Source: Chryseobacterium rhizoplanae
Lineage (GTDB): Bacteria > Bacteroidota > Bacteroidia > Flavobacteriales > Weeksellaceae
Assembly: GCF_900182655.1 (NCBI RefSeq)
Contig: NZ_FXTC01000003.1
Span: forward strand, 124,001 to 188,000
Reading direction: 5' to 3'
DNA: 64,000 nt
Part shown: positions 2,922 to 53,634 of the stretch, piece by piece
Position numbering within the stretch: position 1 is the first letter of the stretch
How the letters are laid out: each line of letters starts with the position of its first letter
Notes under the pieces: model-generated
What the model saw: only the letters and a program-made list of their open reading frames with translations
Databases searched by the model: none
What the model was told of the DNA's origin: nothing
Position numbers and translations under genes: made by a program

Positions 2922-3032
2922 CGGATTTTTCATCGAGATTTTTCTATTGAAAAAATGATTTTAAACACTAAAAAATGAAAACATCATCAATAAATCAAAT
3001 ATTATAGCTGTTTTAATTTGATCAAAAACCCT

Positions 3033-3938
3033 TTAAAATTCTTCGTCTGCAAGTTCTTTATTGACCACTGCACCTGCAAAATTTCCCTGTGAAACAGCAT
3101 TAGCTACTGAACGCATCATTGTCACATTGTCTCCACAGGCAAAAACTCCGGGAACATTTGTTTTCTGCATCATATCTACTTTAATAAATCCCTGCTCTGT
3201 AAGTTCACATCCCAGATCGTCAGATACATTGATATTCTGTTCAAAAGGAATTTTAGCATATAAAGTCTGTAAAGCAACTTCTTTTCCGTTTTTGAAAACG
3301 ATTTTTTGAATGGAACCATTTGTATGCTCAATGCTTTTAATTTCATCTTCGTTAAGAATGATTTTATTCTGCTCCAGTTTTTCGAGTTGTTCATCAGTAA
3401 GAACAGCTTTCCCGTTTGTAAACAGGGTAAGGTTTTTAGTCAGATTAAAAATCAGTTTTGAAAATTCATAAGCCATATCTCCATTGGAAAGAATTCCGGT
3501 AACCTCGTTTTTCACTTCATAGCCGTGACAGTATGGACAATGTATAACAGAAATCCCCCAGCATTCTGCAAATCCGGGAATATCCGGCATTTTATCTTTC
3601 ACTCCGGAAGCTAAAATGAGTTTTTTAGCCTGAAATTTTTCGCCGGATGAAGTTTCAATCTCGAAACCATCAATTGTTTTTACTGTTTTTACAACTGTTC
3701 CATTATAAAACCGGACCGTGTTATATTTCTCTACATCTTCTTTTGCCAGCTTTGCAATTTCGGAAGGTGTTTTCCCATCATGAGTAACAAAATTATGGGA
3801 ATGCGGTGTTTGCCTGTTGCAAGGTTTTCCGTTGTCAATAATCAGGACATTTCTTAAAGACCTTCCCAATGACATACCTGCAGATAAACCGGAGTAACTT
3901 CCTCCTATTATGATGATATCAAAATTTTTGTTTTCCAT
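3033..3938 (-). CDS. Thioredoxin-reductase-like NAD(P)/FAD oxidoreductase with CPYC motif
   Basis: This 301-residue flavoprotein begins with an FAD-binding Rossmann motif (IIIIGGSYSGLSAGMSLGR, residues 8-26) and ends with the FAD motif GVFACGDN. A redox pair C134-P-Y-C137 sits in the TrxR position (IHCPYCHGYE). The second, NAD(P)H-binding Rossmann motif is not canonical: where TrxB has GGGDSA, this protein reads LSNGDMAYE (about residue 150). Similar small CxxC flavoproteins act as disulfide oxidases or reductases; the substrate is unknown here. It is therefore probably not the housekeeping trxB. The start at 3938 lies 12 bases downstream of an array of seven AATTGAT repeats, so its expression may vary with repeat number. 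Confidence 0.8.
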   Translation of the reverse strand: MENKNFDIIIIGGSYSGLSAGMSLGRSLRNVLIIDNGKPCNRQTPHSHNFVTHDGKTPSEIAKLAKEDVEKYNTVRFYNGTVVKTVKTIDGFEIETSSGEKFQAKKLILASGVKDKMPDIPGFAECWGISVIHCPYCHGYEVKNEVTGILSNGDMAYEFSKLIFNLTKNLTLFTNGKAVLTDEQLEKLEQNKIILNEDEIKSIEHTNGSIQKIVFKNGKEVALQTLYAKIPFEQNINVSDDLGCELTEQGFIKVDMMQKTNVPGVFACGDNVTMMRSVANAVSQGNFAGAVVNKELADEEF

Positions 3939-24271: not shown

Positions 24272-24907
24272 TTAACTTATTTCTATAAATTCAGTAATTA
24301 TTTTCACTGGTAATTGATTTTCATCATATGCTATATAACTGGCATAAAATCCTTCCCCATATCCGGTTTCAAAAGCAAATATAGTTCCGGGATGCTCTTT
24401 TGCAGGTTTCAGGAAGGCATATTGGTCAATAGCACCGTTTTCATCAAAGAAATACTCATGGAAAAATTCTTCGTAGATTCCCATAAAATCACCGCCTTTA
24501 TTCTGGAATAGTCTCTGTTCAAGCTCGTTGAGGCTATTTTGAGTATCAACATCCATGAAACATCCCATCCCGCTTTCTACAGGATAACCAAAGATTTCTT
24601 CTTTTGCCAGATCTTTTATGTTCTGTCCTGCCGTAGTTGCCAGTTTCCATTCTTTAATTTCAGAATTATTGAATATGATTTCAGCATAAGCCACACAGTT
24701 ACTGTTTCTTTCTTTGTGCACGATCACAGAAAAATCCCCCTTCGGAAATTCTGTAGTGAAAGGAAGCATATCATTGGTGATTAATGGATCGCAGGCAACC
24801 AGCTTTCCACTGGAAAGATAGATCTTCCCCGCTTCAAAACTTTCTAACAATGGATTTTCTACAAAATCCTTCGAGAATAGTTTTTTTATGTTTTCTATAT
24901 GTGTCAT
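24272..24907 (-). CDS. DUF4241 domain protein
   Basis: This 211-residue protein has features of DUF4241: an early YLSSGKLVACDPLI, central FPKGDFSVIVH, AEIIFNNSEIKEWKLAT, and a later segment with GMGCFMDVDTQ. The family is of unknown function and common in Bacteroidota and Firmicutes, sometimes near toxin immunity genes. It starts only five bases after the stop codon of the GIY-YIG gene, so the repeat-flanked nuclease unit lies immediately upstream and may affect its expression. Confidence 0.7.
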   Translation of the reverse strand: MTHIENIKKLFSKDFVENPLLESFEAGKIYLSSGKLVACDPLITNDMLPFTTEFPKGDFSVIVHKERNSNCVAYAEIIFNNSEIKEWKLATTAGQNIKDLAKEEIFGYPVESGMGCFMDVDTQNSLNELEQRLFQNKGGDFMGIYEEFFHEYFFDENGAIDQYAFLKPAKEHPGTIFAFETGYGEGFYASYIAYDENQLPVKIITEFIEIS

Positions 24908-24912
24908 TTTAT

Positions 24913-25278
24913 TTATTCTTTATTTTCAGTGTCAGGCCGAGCGGAGTCGAAGCCTTTGGGATTTTTATCATTAAAATTATCTGCATGGCTGTCATTTCGG
25001 CAAATAGATAATTCTTTCAGCTTATCCCAATTATCATTTATAGTAGCTTCCTTTTTCTTACGACTCCAGCCCTTCACTTGTTTTTCAAATGCTATTGCCT
25101 GAATAATATCATTAAACAGATAAAAGAAGACCAGCTCAACCGGTCTTCTTTTATACGTATAACTTTCAGGAAATTTCCCTGACTGATGCTGAGAAAATCT
25201 CAATTCAATATCATTGGTAACTCCTGTATAATAGGAATTATCGGAACATTTTAAAATATATACAAAATATTGTTTCAT
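24913..25278 (-). CDS. GIY-YIG nuclease enclosed by inverted repeats
   Basis: This 121-residue protein has a single GIY-YIG domain: FVYILKCSDNSYYTGVTNDI (residues 5-24), R27, the metal-binding Glu in AFEKQVKGWSRKKKE (E65), and K-rich helix. Such domains cut DNA. Residues 108-117 (KGFDSARPDT) are the translation of the left repeat (24930-24957), so the repeat supplies the protein tail. The start codon is seven bases inside the right repeat (25286-25313). The gene therefore nearly fills a 384-bp unit with 28-bp inverted ends (26 of 28 identical). Many Bacteroidota GIY-YIG proteins of this UPF0213-like kind are annotated with no role. A link to spread or upkeep of the repeats is an inference. 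Confidence 0.85.
   Translation of the reverse strand: MKQYFVYILKCSDNSYYTGVTNDIELRFSQHQSGKFPESYTYKRRPVELVFFYLFNDIIQAIAFEKQVKGWSRKKKEATINDNWDKLKELSICRNDSHADNFNDKNPKGFDSARPDTENKE
24930..24957 (-). repeat. Left inverted copy of the CTTCGACTCCGCTC repeat
   Basis: On the minus strand the segment reads CTTCGACTCCGCTCGGCCTG at its core. It is an inverted match to 25286-25313 at 26 of 28 positions. It overlaps the 3' end of the GIY-YIG gene. Other copies of the family are at 45079-45105, 45157-45184 and 52788-52810. Confidence 0.9.
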
Positions 25279-25285
25279 CTTTCAA

Positions 25286-25313
25286 AAAGGCTTCGACTCT
25301 GCTCAGCCTGACA
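25286..25313 (+). repeat. Right inverted copy of the CTTCGACTCCGCTC repeat
   Basis: Reads CTTCGACTCTGCTCAGCCTG at its core on the plus strand, ending TGACA. It lies in the spacer between valS and the GIY-YIG gene, just upstream of the nuclease start. Confidence 0.9.
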
Positions 25314-25345: not shown

Positions 25346-27961
25346 TTACAAACTTTTCAGTTTCTCTTCAAGGATCGCAATTTTATCCTGAGCATCTTTC
25401 TGCTTCTTACGCTCCACTTCTACAACTTCAGGTTTAGCATTGGCAACAAACTTTTCATTGGAAAGTTTCTTATCAACTGAAATTAAGAACCCTTTTAAAT
25501 ATTTCAATTCTTCTTCAGTTTTTGCTTTTTCTTCTCCTAAATCTAAGTTTTCACTTAAAGGAATAGAAACCTCAGTCGCTCCTACCAGGAAAGTAAAGCT
25601 AGGCTTATCTGTTTTTTGTCCAAAATAGATTTCAGAAACATTAGCCAGTTTTCTTACTACAGCTTCATTGGCAAATTCAGATGCATTGGTATAAACCTCA
25701 ACAGCTTCTCTTGGCGAAATTCCTTTTGTCTGGCGGTAATTTCTAACTCCTGAAATTAATTCAGCTGTGATTTCAAAGTTTTTAATAGCTTCTTCACTAA
25801 AGCTATCGGCATTCTTCTGCTGAGCAATAACAAGCGCTTCATCAATACTTCTTTCAGAAATCAACTGCCAGATTTCTTCAGACTGGAATGGCATGAACGG
25901 ATGAAGCAGCTTCATCAATTCTTCAAAGAAATAAATGGTTTTATTATATACTTCTTTAGAAATTCCTTCTCCATAGTTAGGCTTGATTGCTTCAAGATAC
26001 CAACCACAAAAATCATCCCAAATTAATTTATAGATCAAATGCAACGCATCAGAAATTCTGAACTTCTCAAACTGATCATTAATTTCAACGATTGTTTTGT
26101 TCAGTTTATTTTCAAACCATTCAATAGCCTGATTATCTGTAGCAATTGCAGGTTTATCTTCGTGATTCCACATATTGATCAAACGGAATGCACTCCAGAT
26201 TTTGGTCATAAAGTTTCTTCCCTGAAGCATTAAGTCTTCATCAAAAAGAAGGTCATTACCTGCAGCAGAACTCAATAGAATTCCTACGCGTACCCCATCA
26301 GCACCATATTTTTCCATTAATTCAATAGGATCCGGAGAGTTTCCTAAAGATTTTGACATTTTTCTTCTTTGCTTATCTCTTACAATTCCTGTAAAGTAAA
26401 CATTTTTGAACGGAACTTCTTTTTTGTATTCCAATCCGGACATGATCATTCTTGCCACCCAGAAGAAAATAATATCAGGGGCAGTTACCAGGTCAGAAGT
26501 AGGATAATAATACTGGATATCTTTATTTTCAGGATCTAAAAGCCCTTCAAACACAGACATTGGCCATAGCCAGGCTGAGAACCATGTATCTAATGTGTCC
26601 TGATCCTGTCTTAAACTCTCCAGAGTAAGTTCCGGATTTCCGGATTTCTGTTTTGCTAATTCTAAAGCTTCTTCAGCTGTTTCAGCTACTACAAAATCTT
26701 CATCTCCTGTTCCGAAGTAAAAAGCAGGAATCTGCTGTCCCCACCATAGCTGACGGGAAATATTCCAGTCACGGATGTTTTCCATCCAATGTTTGTAGGT
26801 ATTTTTAAATTTCTCAGGATAGAATTTTACATCATCATCCATTACCACATCTAAAGCAGGCTTAGCAAGATCAGACATCTTAAGAAACCACTGTACAGAA
26901 ATTTTAGGTTCAATTACGGCACCTGTTCTTTCCGAAGTTCCTACTTTATTTACATAGTCTTCAGCTTTCAGTAAAAGATCTTTTTCTTCAAGTTCTTTTG
27001 CAATCTGCTTTCTTACGTCAAATCTATTCTTTCCGGCATAATGCAATCCATGCTCATTAAGGTTTCCGTCATCATCCAGAGCATCAATCATTTTCAACTG
27101 GTGTTTCTGTCCGATTTCGTAGTCATTCACGTCGTGTGCCGGTGTAATTTTCAAAGCTCCGGTTCCGAATTCAATATCAACATATTCGTCTTCAATGATT
27201 GGCACTACTCTGTTCACAATCGGTACAATTACATTTTTACCTTTTAAATGAGCATATCTTTCGTCATTAGGATTGATACAAACTGCGGTATCTCCAAAAA
27301 TAGTTTCAGGACGTGTAGTAGCCACTGAAAGGAACTCTTCTGAGCCTTCAATTTTATATTTAAGGAAATATAGTTTTCCGTTTTGTTCTTTGAATATTAC
27401 TTCTTCATCAGAAATATTGGTCTTTGCTTCAGGATCCCAGTTGACCATTCTGTATCCTCTGTAGATCTTTCCTTTATTATACAGATCTACAAAGCTTATA
27501 ATAACCTGTTTTGAAAGGTTATCTTCCATGGTAAAACGGGTTCTGTCCCAATCACAAGAACATCCCAGTTTTTTCAGCTGCTCAAGAATGGTCCCTCCAT
27601 ATTTGTGAGTCCAGTCCCAGGCATGTTTTAGAAATTCTTCACGGGTAAGATCTGACTTATTGATTCCTTCAGACTTCAATTTAGCAACAACTTTAGCTTC
27701 AGTAGCAATTGAAGCATGATCTGTTCCCGGAATCCAACAAGCATTAAACCCGCGCATTCTTGCACGACGGACCAGAACATCTTGAATGGTATTGTTCAAC
27801 ATATGTCCCATGTGTAATATCCCCGTCACATTTGGTGGAGGAATGACCACGGTATATGGTGGTTTGTCATTAGGTTCTGAATGGAAATATTTATTTTCCA
27901 ACCAGTAATTGTACCATTTCTGTTCTGTTTCCTGTGGATTGTACTTTTCTGAAATCTGCAT
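25346..27961 (-). CDS. valS: Valine--tRNA ligase
   Basis: ValS charges tRNA-Val with valine in the cytoplasm and edits mischarged threonine. The class I signatures are present: HIGH as HMGH in PPPNVTGILHMGHMLNNT, and KMSKS in DKQRRKMSKSLGNSPDP. The editing domain (FGTGALKITPAHDVNDYEIG) and a C-terminal coiled coil (residues about 810-871) are intact. I start it at the ATG at 27961 (871 residues). An upstream TTG at 27985 is less likely because a -7 element (TATTTTTG, 27997 to 27990) ends only five bases before it. Confidence 0.96.
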   Translation of the reverse strand: MQISEKYNPQETEQKWYNYWLENKYFHSEPNDKPPYTVVIPPPNVTGILHMGHMLNNTIQDVLVRRARMRGFNACWIPGTDHASIATEAKVVAKLKSEGINKSDLTREEFLKHAWDWTHKYGGTILEQLKKLGCSCDWDRTRFTMEDNLSKQVIISFVDLYNKGKIYRGYRMVNWDPEAKTNISDEEVIFKEQNGKLYFLKYKIEGSEEFLSVATTRPETIFGDTAVCINPNDERYAHLKGKNVIVPIVNRVVPIIEDEYVDIEFGTGALKITPAHDVNDYEIGQKHQLKMIDALDDDGNLNEHGLHYAGKNRFDVRKQIAKELEEKDLLLKAEDYVNKVGTSERTGAVIEPKISVQWFLKMSDLAKPALDVVMDDDVKFYPEKFKNTYKHWMENIRDWNISRQLWWGQQIPAFYFGTGDEDFVVAETAEEALELAKQKSGNPELTLESLRQDQDTLDTWFSAWLWPMSVFEGLLDPENKDIQYYYPTSDLVTAPDIIFFWVARMIMSGLEYKKEVPFKNVYFTGIVRDKQRRKMSKSLGNSPDPIELMEKYGADGVRVGILLSSAAGNDLLFDEDLMLQGRNFMTKIWSAFRLINMWNHEDKPAIATDNQAIEWFENKLNKTIVEINDQFEKFRISDALHLIYKLIWDDFCGWYLEAIKPNYGEGISKEVYNKTIYFFEELMKLLHPFMPFQSEEIWQLISERSIDEALVIAQQKNADSFSEEAIKNFEITAELISGVRNYRQTKGISPREAVEVYTNASEFANEAVVRKLANVSEIYFGQKTDKPSFTFLVGATEVSIPLSENLDLGEEKAKTEEELKYLKGFLISVDKKLSNEKFVANAKPEVVEVERKKQKDAQDKIAILEEKLKSL

Positions 27962-27989
27962 AAATTCTATTTCTTTGGCTTGCAATTTG

Positions 27990-45078: not shown

Positions 45079-45105
45079 CTTCGACTCCGCTCAGGATGAC
45101 ATTCC
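45079..45105 (+). repeat. CTTCGACTCCGCTC repeat, convergent pair, left copy
   Basis: CTTCGACTCCGCTCAGGATG with the tail ACATTCC. Member of the family that encloses the GIY-YIG gene. Its partner at 45157-45184 is inverted, so the region can fold into a hairpin of about 100 bases. Confidence 0.85.
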
Positions 45106-45156: not shown

Positions 45157-45184
45157 GGTCAGCCTGACCGGAGTCGAAGGCTTT
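45157..45184 (-). repeat. CTTCGACTCCGCTC repeat, convergent pair, right copy
   Basis: On the minus strand it reads CTTCGACTCCGGTCAGGCTG. It ends just before the promoter region of the second AraC gene. Sixteen of the first 17 bases pair with the left copy. Confidence 0.85.
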
Positions 45185-51399: not shown

Positions 51400-51597
51400 A
51401 GTCTATATATTTTAAGGTTATTTATTTTAAATCGGTTTCAAAATTAAATATTCCCACATCACTCTCACTTTCCATATGACAAGATTATTTAAAGATAAGT
51501 ATTTTTGTCATAACTTGTGAGTAAGGCATTATTTTTGAGCGTTTCAGCTGTGATTCCCAATGAATCATTACATTTACCTTATATAAAAGATCAAAAA

Positions 51598-53634
51598 ATG
51601 AATATTTTAACAGAAAAATTTACTACTCCATATCATTCAGCACCCTTCAGTGATATTAAAAATGAAGATTATCTTCCGGCGTTTAAAGAGCTGATTCAAA
51701 AATCTGAAGCAGAAATTGATGCTATTGTCAACAATACGGAAGCACCCACTTTTGAAAATGTTATTGAAGCATTGGCGTATTCAGGGGAACAGCTGGATGT
51801 GGTTTCAAATATTTTTTTCAACTTAAATTCTGCAGAAACCAGCGATGAGATCCAGCAGATTGCCCAGGAGGTTTCTCCGATCTTAACGGAATATTCTTCA
51901 AAAATATCTCAAAACGAAGCCCTTTTCAACAAAATCAAGAAAGTATATGATGAAAAGGACAAATATAATCTCAACGAAGAGCAGGAAATGCTTTTGAACG
52001 AGACCTACAAAGGTTTTGTAAGAAGCGGAGCTTTACTGAATGAGGAAGACAAAGAAAAATTAAAGAAAATCAGCATGGATCTTTCTTTAAAATCTTTACA
52101 GTTCGGACAGAATGTTTTGGCTTCTACAAATGCTTATTTTAAACATATCACGAATAAGGAAGATCTTGCAGGAATTCCTGAGGCTATCATTGATCAATAT
52201 GCTGAGGAGGCTAAAGAAAGAAACCTTGAAGGATGGGTAGTAACTTTACAATACCCAAGCTATATTCCGTTCATGACGTATGCTGAAAACCGCGAACTGA
52301 GAAAGGAACTGGCACTGGCAAATGGTAAAAAATCCTTTGATGGCGGAGAATTCGACAATCAGAATCTGATTAAAGAACTACTTAATCTAAAACAGCAGAA
52401 AGCTGAACTTATCGGGTATAAAAATTATGCAGATTTCGTTCTGGAAGAAAGAATGGCGAAGTCTCCGGTAAAAGTTTTTGATTTCTTAAACGAGCTTTTA
52501 ACCAAAGCAAAACCATATGCTGATAAAGAAATTGAAGAACTGAAATCTTTAGCCAAAGCCGACGGAATTGAAGAAATGCAGGGTTATGATCATGCATTCT
52601 ATGCTGAAAAGCTTCGTAAGCAGAAATTTGATCTTAATGATGAGGAATTAAAACCATACTTCCCGTTAGATCAGGTACAGGAAGCAGTATTCGGATTGGC
52701 AGGAAAACTTTTCGGACTGACTTTTGAGGAGAGAAATGATATTCCGAAATACCACGAAGATGTAAAAGTATATGAAGTAAAAGAGGCCTTCGGCTCCGCT
52801 CAGGCTGACAGCTACAAGGCATTATTATATGTTGATTATTTCCCAAGAAAAGGGAAAAGAGCCGGTGCATGGATGACCAGCTACAAAAATCAGTATAAGC
52901 AAAACGGTGAAAATTCCCGTCCGCATATTTCAATCGTTTGTAACTTCAGCAAACCGACAAAAGATACCCCCAGCCTACTGACGTTCCAGGAAGTGACTAC
53001 TCTTTTCCACGAATTCGGGCACGCACTTCACGGAATGATGGCAGATACCCAGTATCCTACACTGTCTGGAACTTCTGTAAAATGGGATTTTGTGGAACTT
53101 CCATCTCAGTTTCTGGAGAACTTCTGTTATGAGCCTGAGTTCTTAAAAACATTCGCCAAACATTATAAAACCGGGGAAGTACTTCCTGATGGAAAAATTG
53201 AAAGAATAGAGCAGTCTAAAAACTTCATGGAAGGTTATCAAACTTTAAGACAGCTTGGATTCGGACTTCTGGATATGAATTATCATACAAAAGTTGGAGA
53301 GTTGGAGAATGAAAGTATAAAGGATTTTGAAGATAAATATACCAAAGCAACCACTCTTTATCCTTCCAATTCTGAAACGGCAATGAGCCCAAGTTTCTCC
53401 CACATTTTCCAGGGCGGATATTCTGCCGGATATTATTCTTACAAATGGGCGGAAGTTCTGGATGCGGATGCTTTCCAGTATTTCAAAGAAAATGGAATCT
53501 TCAATCCTGAGATTGCAGCCAAATATAAAGTATTGCTTTCTTCAGGAGGAACAAAAGATCCAATGGAATTGTATAAAAGCTTCAGAGGCAGCGAGCCAAA
53601 AGTGGAGAGTTTGCTGAAAAGAGCATTTGGATAA
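51598..53634 (+). CDS. M3-family zinc metallopeptidase (Dcp/oligopeptidase A-like)
   Basis: This cytoplasmic peptidase cuts short peptides. The 678-residue sequence has the zinc motif H471-E-F-G-H475 in FHEFGHALHG, with the third Glu and later residues in the M3 pattern (SQFLENFCYEPE, FSHIFQGGYSAGYYSYKWAEVLDADAF). I start it at the ATG at 51598 because the frame before it starts from a poor upstream codon; a -7 box TATTTTTG is at 51500-51507. Odd: codons for EAFGSAQAD (about residues 396-404) lie in a copy of the CTTCGACTCCGCTC repeat, just before the conserved LLYVDYFPRKGKRAGAW block, which looks like a tolerated insertion. Confidence 0.93.
   Translation: MNILTEKFTTPYHSAPFSDIKNEDYLPAFKELIQKSEAEIDAIVNNTEAPTFENVIEALAYSGEQLDVVSNIFFNLNSAETSDEIQQIAQEVSPILTEYSSKISQNEALFNKIKKVYDEKDKYNLNEEQEMLLNETYKGFVRSGALLNEEDKEKLKKISMDLSLKSLQFGQNVLASTNAYFKHITNKEDLAGIPEAIIDQYAEEAKERNLEGWVVTLQYPSYIPFMTYAENRELRKELALANGKKSFDGGEFDNQNLIKELLNLKQQKAELIGYKNYADFVLEERMAKSPVKVFDFLNELLTKAKPYADKEIEELKSLAKADGIEEMQGYDHAFYAEKLRKQKFDLNDEELKPYFPLDQVQEAVFGLAGKLFGLTFEERNDIPKYHEDVKVYEVKEAFGSAQADSYKALLYVDYFPRKGKRAGAWMTSYKNQYKQNGENSRPHISIVCNFSKPTKDTPSLLTFQEVTTLFHEFGHALHGMMADTQYPTLSGTSVKWDFVELPSQFLENFCYEPEFLKTFAKHYKTGEVLPDGKIERIEQSKNFMEGYQTLRQLGFGLLDMNYHTKVGELENESIKDFEDKYTKATTLYPSNSETAMSPSFSHIFQGGYSAGYYSYKWAEVLDADAFQYFKENGIFNPEIAAKYKVLLSSGGTKDPMELYKSFRGSEPKVESLLKRAFG
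52788..52810 (+). repeat. CTTCGACTCCGCTC-type repeat inside the M3 peptidase gene
   Basis: CTTCGGCTCCGCTCAGGCTG plus ACA differs from the GIY-YIG-flanking consensus at two of 23 positions. It is in frame within the coding sequence. Confidence 0.7.

Follow-up and report, generated by a model that had tools for sequence, protein, structure and literature searches.

A small GIY-YIG nuclease gene and the two REP sequences flanking it, found in a stretch of 64,000 nucleotides of Chryseobacterium rhizoplanae DNA (the window), are likely (probability roughly 0.65) to be one unit of a repeat-plus-enzyme system that operates in the manner of REP/RAYT but uses a GIY-YIG nuclease. Small GIY-YIG genes of this family are associated with inverted or clustered [T/C]GTC REPs that pair by type with the nuclease; the REPs are also dispersed, and both the units and solo REPs occur as presence/absence alleles. 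Since well over a hundred related genes in several phyla are likewise set in matching repeats, the nuclease is probably the handling enzyme that had been missing for bacterial repeats of a very common class.

The window gene is an ORF of 121 aa on the minus strand (24913–25278), placed between both copies of the repeat. The upstream REP (25286–25313, plus strand; TGTCAGGCTGAGCAGAGTCGAAGCCTTT on the gene strand) lies 7 nt before the ATG and directs its TGTC tag away from the gene. The other REP (24930–24957, minus strand), whose tag is also directed away from the gene, is read through at the gene 3′ end and encodes the last residues of the protein, KGFDSARPDT. Both were located from the sequence, by comparison of the inverted arms and by a motif scan; the arms are 28 nt long, inverted, complementary at 26 of 28 positions (93%) and spaced by 328 nt, which bears out the enclosure by inverted copies described in the first-pass annotation. 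The gene is free-standing and intergenic, residing in no intron or intein. It lies between valS (25346–27985, minus strand; ORF and valS-region comparison) and an ORF (24272–24907, minus strand) that was named a DUF4241-type gene in the same annotation, these two being the flanks of a recurrent insertion site.

Concerning the enzyme, GIY-YIG was the only domain found by Pfam (PF01541, E 5e-17), and the catalytic residues Y7, Y17, G19, R27, H31 and E65 were invariant among 40 relatives, the Tyr, Tyr, Arg and Glu that define the family being thus conserved. A structure model of the window nuclease (pLDDT 81) gave its best match with UPF0213 proteins and the next one with the branched-DNA nuclease Slx1. 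The stand-alone GIY-YIG proteins UPF0213/YhbQ/YazA are similar in fold and size and include the nearest solved structures (PDB 1zg2 and 1ywl), but they form a separate clade. A reading of the nuclease as part of a defence system was dropped, since PADLOC returned no match for the window protein and only a weak homing-endonuclease match for a Rhizobium relative.

A search with the window protein yielded 80 loci, nearly all of them from Bacteroidota. REPs were present on both sides of the gene in 77 of the 80, within 150 bp in 73 of these 77, and REP density up to 500 bp from the nuclease gene was 54 times as high as in the remainder of the locus. The association was also analyzed without recourse to any motif, by comparing the 200 bp before the gene with its end and the 200 bp that follow; repeats in inverted or direct orientation were scored, with scores of at least 14 being counted. 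Such a repeat pair was found in the flanks of 84% of 129 non-redundant small GIY-YIG genes and of 2.3% of 523 other ORFs from the same loci; with inverted repeats only, the figures were 58% and 0.8%, respectively. None of six YhbQ/YazA-type small GIY-YIG genes had a flanking pair, which rules out that all stand-alone GIY-YIG proteins have REPs. Conversely, when 396 genomes of the order were searched for exact outward-tagged repeat pairs spaced by 310–340 nt, five were found and all five contained the nuclease gene, while the control search with tags inward gave no pair in the same genomes. This repeat-first test is specific but small (five units). A repeat hot spot around any gene is ruled out by the control ORFs and the repeat-first test, and so is the proposition that such repeats flank unrelated genes equally often, which the first-pass annotation had named as fatal to its interpretation.

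The window holds three further copies of the repeat, as the first-pass annotation had noted. Two of them, located by motif scans, form an inverted pair that encloses no gene, has its tags inward and is flanked by an SDR gene and an AraC-type gene (45079–45101, plus strand, and 45157–45179, minus strand), a pair for which relatives carry long and collapsed alleles. The third, located by motif scans and comparison of relatives, is a solo REP (52786–52810, plus strand) placed in frame within a peptidase gene (51517–53634) and present in some species only. With a stringent motif (up to 3 mismatches), 3 copies were counted in the window versus a mean of 0.00 in 100 dinucleotide shuffles, and 23 dispersed copies in the whole genome (5.18 Mb) versus 0 with a reversed-pattern control. 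The shuffles, the reversed-pattern control and the control ORFs rule out that the repeats arose by chance. As a single strand, the window-type REP folds weakly (−2.9 kcal/mol, z −0.4), with a 5-bp stem and no CCA tail; a strong hairpin was looked for by folding and not found.

The source genome has four GIY-YIG loci. Besides the window gene, these are L002, which has GTCATTCCG repeats, L004, which is decayed and has GTCATTGCGAGG repeats, and L005 (contig C2, about 685354), a truncated gene of a second clade with CTTCGACAAGCTCAG-type repeats. In L005, the place of the missing N-terminal part is taken by a pair of REPs of the type belonging to that clade. Elsewhere in the same genome, a REP-containing stretch is directly repeated 559 bp apart near a contig end (L012/L013, contig C10, 163069–163650). 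Identity between nuclease copies of one genome almost never exceeds 74%, and mostly there is one copy per clade. The sole near-identical pair seen within a genome consists of two tandem GIY-YIG genes, 96.9% identical, in REP arrays (L217; genome G100, contig C1, 2382418–2383526).

The relation between repeat type and nuclease was analyzed on a tree of 135 nuclease proteins built from a short alignment of 101 columns. REP-type labels were assigned from the flanks by regular expressions, except for 13 that were set by eye from the flanks before tree building. The labels required 11 changes on the tree, the minimum being 8 and the number expected from shuffled labels 64.2 (none of 200 shuffles was as low), a signal that comes in part from the shared ancestry of gene and flanks. 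The CGTC type of alphaproteobacteria corresponds to one supported nuclease clade, and the YhbQ/YazA proteins to a separate clade without flanking repeats. Judged by sequence, every clade of the nuclease is paired with a REP type of its own (cognate pairing). REP abundance also follows the enzyme: among 119 genomes of the family, the median number of window-type REPs was 22.5 with a close homolog, 1 with diverged homologs only and 0 with none (p 8e-10 when phylogeny is ignored; p 0.008 at the genus level). REPs are numerous in some genomes in which no nuclease was detected (for instance G072 with 31 and G069 with 28).

The valS-DUF4241 gap was compared in 70 Chryseobacterium genomes; 17 of them have a filled allele, 28 have a REP hairpin and 25 have some other allele. 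One empty allele (L289) consists of TGTCAGGCTGAGC-ACAGATTTTCTATCTCC-GCTCAGCCTGACA. Compared to it, a filled allele (L281) has identical flanks and identical 13-nt arms, and adds the inner halves of the REPs with the gene between them. In the empty alleles, the outer REP arms form a terminator-like hairpin. On the valS tree, the filled state requires 14 changes, at least 9 of them forced by well-supported branches, with gains and losses being indistinguishable in direction. Distances of the nuclease gene and of valS correlate with a Spearman coefficient of 0.49. It is worth noting that L281 and another filled locus (L290) diverge by 16.5% in valS and by only 1.8% in the nuclease gene (98% identical); transfer of the element alone is not provable here, because the flanks close to the unit are similar too, so that more than the unit may have moved. 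In five loci (L189, L191, L198, L267 and L290), one or both REPs have the centre GGAGTC swapped for a longer ACAGATGAAAATCTGCGAAC..GTTCAC segment, the tag and the end being unchanged. The gap contains some other insert, of 327 to about 700 nt, in L264, L270, L274, L276, L294 and L295, and may therefore be a general insertion site.

Empty and filled alleles were also found at the suf operon of Azospirillum. In A. lipoferum (L131, 2874–3386), the nuclease gene and four CGTC REPs lie between sufB and sufC; the insert is absent in 11 other Azospirillum records (checked nucleotide by nucleotide in three), all outgroups being empty, which points to a gain in A. lipoferum. The alleles at these two sites thus dispose of the other objection foreseen in the first-pass annotation, namely a lack of empty sites or a vertical conservation of the gene without the repeats. 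A clearly different GIY-YIG unit occupies the sufB-sufC position in Shinella PSBB067 (L133, about 2950–3380); since different units are found there in different genera, this could be a preferred site.

GIY-YIG enzymes hydrolyze DNA without a covalent intermediate. This makes strand transfer in the RAYT style unlikely and favors a homing-like spread by break and gene conversion. The nuclease would recognize its own cognate REP, either in duplex form or extruded as a hairpin, and would cut near the TGTC/CGTC tag; another REP or a REP-flanked copy would then serve as the template for repair of the break. Such break-and-copy repair could place the gene inside REP palindromes and let gene-less REP pairs spread in trans. 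Homing-like repair would agree with the position of the gene within a REP palindrome, the outer arms of which do not differ between empty and filled alleles. On the other hand, copies within a genome are almost never near-identical, so self-spread inside a genome is not seen. The data lend weak support to the gene unit being an autonomous multiplying element, as genomes have mostly one copy per clade, which is also reported for RAYTs. The main cautions are the weak hairpin of the window REP and this low copy number of the nuclease within genomes. The repeat association, the cognate pairing and the presence/absence alleles support the idea, proposed from the window alone, of a REP/RAYT-like unit with a different nuclease. 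The broader proposal, for which we see about even chances, is a second, chemically unrelated class of REP-handling enzymes, in which GIY-YIG nucleases would be the dedicated partners of [C/T]GTC REPs across Bacteroidota, Pseudomonadota and others, spreading the repeats and themselves by palindrome cutting and homing-like repair.

Other interpretations deserve consideration. The nuclease could be a domesticated, structure-selective, Slx1-like caretaker. It would trim or resolve hairpins or cruciforms formed by REPs, or be under their regulation, without any REP spreading, the REPs being remnants or moved otherwise. We hold this to be unlikely. In its favor are Slx1 as the closest functional fold after UPF0213, the mostly single nuclease copy per clade per genome, and the abundance that REPs can reach without a nuclease gene. 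Against it, the REP type shifts together with the nuclease clade, units and solo REPs show presence/absence alleles, and REP copies are more numerous where a close homolog is present.

It seems improbable that the pattern reflects only inheritance and repeated deletion of an old mobile element, with REPs as dead ends and arms retained as transcription terminators. The invariant catalytic residues, the 98% identical nuclease genes at two loci with 16.5% valS divergence, the suf insert in one species with all outgroups empty and the solo REP in the peptidase gene of some species only speak against it, while the terminator-like hairpin kept by the outer arms in empty alleles, the correlation of gene and valS distances (0.49) and the decayed nuclease copies in the source genome are in its favor. 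Even less credit can be given to an accumulation of REPs near the nuclease gene for some unrelated reason, such as an insertion hot spot or a small gene between terminators. That the REPs are dispersed and also found without the gene agrees with this, but it is already contradicted by the control comparisons: repeat pairs flank only 2.3% of control ORFs and no YhbQ/YazA-type gene, the REP types are particular to the nuclease clades, and the repeat-first test gave the nuclease in 5/5 units.

Compared to known systems, the preferred reading of a repeat-plus-nuclease unit comes close to the REPtrons formed by GTAG REPs and RAYT/TnpA-REP transposases (PMC2817692, PMC8266576). Common to both are an enzyme gene bordered by its own inverted REPs, dispersed REPs, cognate pairing with REP type co-varying with enzyme type, mostly one enzyme copy per type, and a REP abundance that follows enzyme presence. 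The differences are in the enzyme, a Y1/HUH tyrosine transposase there and a GIY-YIG protein here (Pfam domain, UPF0213-like fold), and in the tag, GTAG there and TGTC/CGTC here. The window unit would work like a REPtron and is not a RAYT member, as it has neither an HUH/Y1 enzyme nor a GTAG tag. In REPINs (Bertels and Rainey 2011, PMC3116915), an inverted REP pair is likewise a unit varying between genomes, but the partner is a RAYT, whereas here the cargo of some pairs is a GIY-YIG gene. Homing endonucleases of the GIY-YIG type, such as I-TevI, share the catalytic domain and the presence/absence alleles at one site; they differ in that here there is no intron or intein, nor a separate DNA-binding domain in the 121 aa.

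CGTC-tagged REPs, with a tag that is sometimes TGTC or CCTC, have been described mainly in Alphaproteobacteria, and in Neisseria and Bacteroidetes too, apparently without a dedicated transposase, no associated transposase gene having been found (Di Nocera et al. 2013, PMC3733652). The tag beside the nucleases studied here is TGTC or CGTC, within the range of that superfamily. In loci from outside Bacteroidota, taken from plasmid and IMG/VR records, the small GIY-YIG gene was flanked by inverted repeats matching at 31/31 positions in Sphingobium (CGTCACCCCGGGCTTGACCCGGGGTCCCGCT) and at 33/33 in Rhizobium (CTCCGTCATCCCAGGGCTTGACCCTGGGATCCA), and CGTC-type repeats were also found beside such genes in Sinorhizobium, Shinella, Neorhizobium, Novosphingobium, Azospirillum, Neisseria and Aeromonas. 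An association restricted to Chryseobacterium is thus ruled out by loci across Bacteroidota and other phyla. In those records, CGTC-like hairpins were 7.6-fold denser up to 300 bp from the gene than elsewhere. No flanking repeat pair was found at the GIY-YIG gene of Photobacterium (L135), and in Rhizobium rhododendri (L130) the repeat copies were downstream of the gene only. The superfamily is characterized by a stem of 8–9 bp adjoining the tag and a tail near CCA, and the alphaproteobacterial and Neisseria repeats tested agree with this (stems of 8–9 bp; −8.9 to −10.4 kcal/mol). The alphaproteobacterial repeats fit the published description of CGTC REPs, and those of Neisseria and Aeromonas likewise carry the CGTC tag on an 8–10 bp stem, whereas the Bacteroidota repeats carry the TGTC variant, on a stem that in the window REP is shorter and imperfect.

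A candidate enzyme can hence be named for the CGTC REPs of PMC3733652, as it adjoins them in species of several phyla and its clades match the repeat types. No report joining GIY-YIG with REP or RAYT was found in the literature searched, although bioRxiv and most subscription papers were outside its scope and a prior report is possible. A single small protein and a 30-mer would now suffice to put the question of the REP enzyme to a direct test. The proposal would supply a function for many orphan annotations of "GIY-YIG nuclease family protein", and would account for C-terminal tails like GFDSAQPD, as these would be encoded by the repeat. A Bacteroidota-type unit with this very tail was seen in a contig labelled Candidatus Marinimicrobia (L064), which may be due to transfer or to a binning error. 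Finally, the nuclease gene is flanked in four loci (L058, L079, L088 and L090) by long, regular, BIME-like arrays of alternating REPs; the array in L090, for instance, comprises 8 units, each about 178 bp long.
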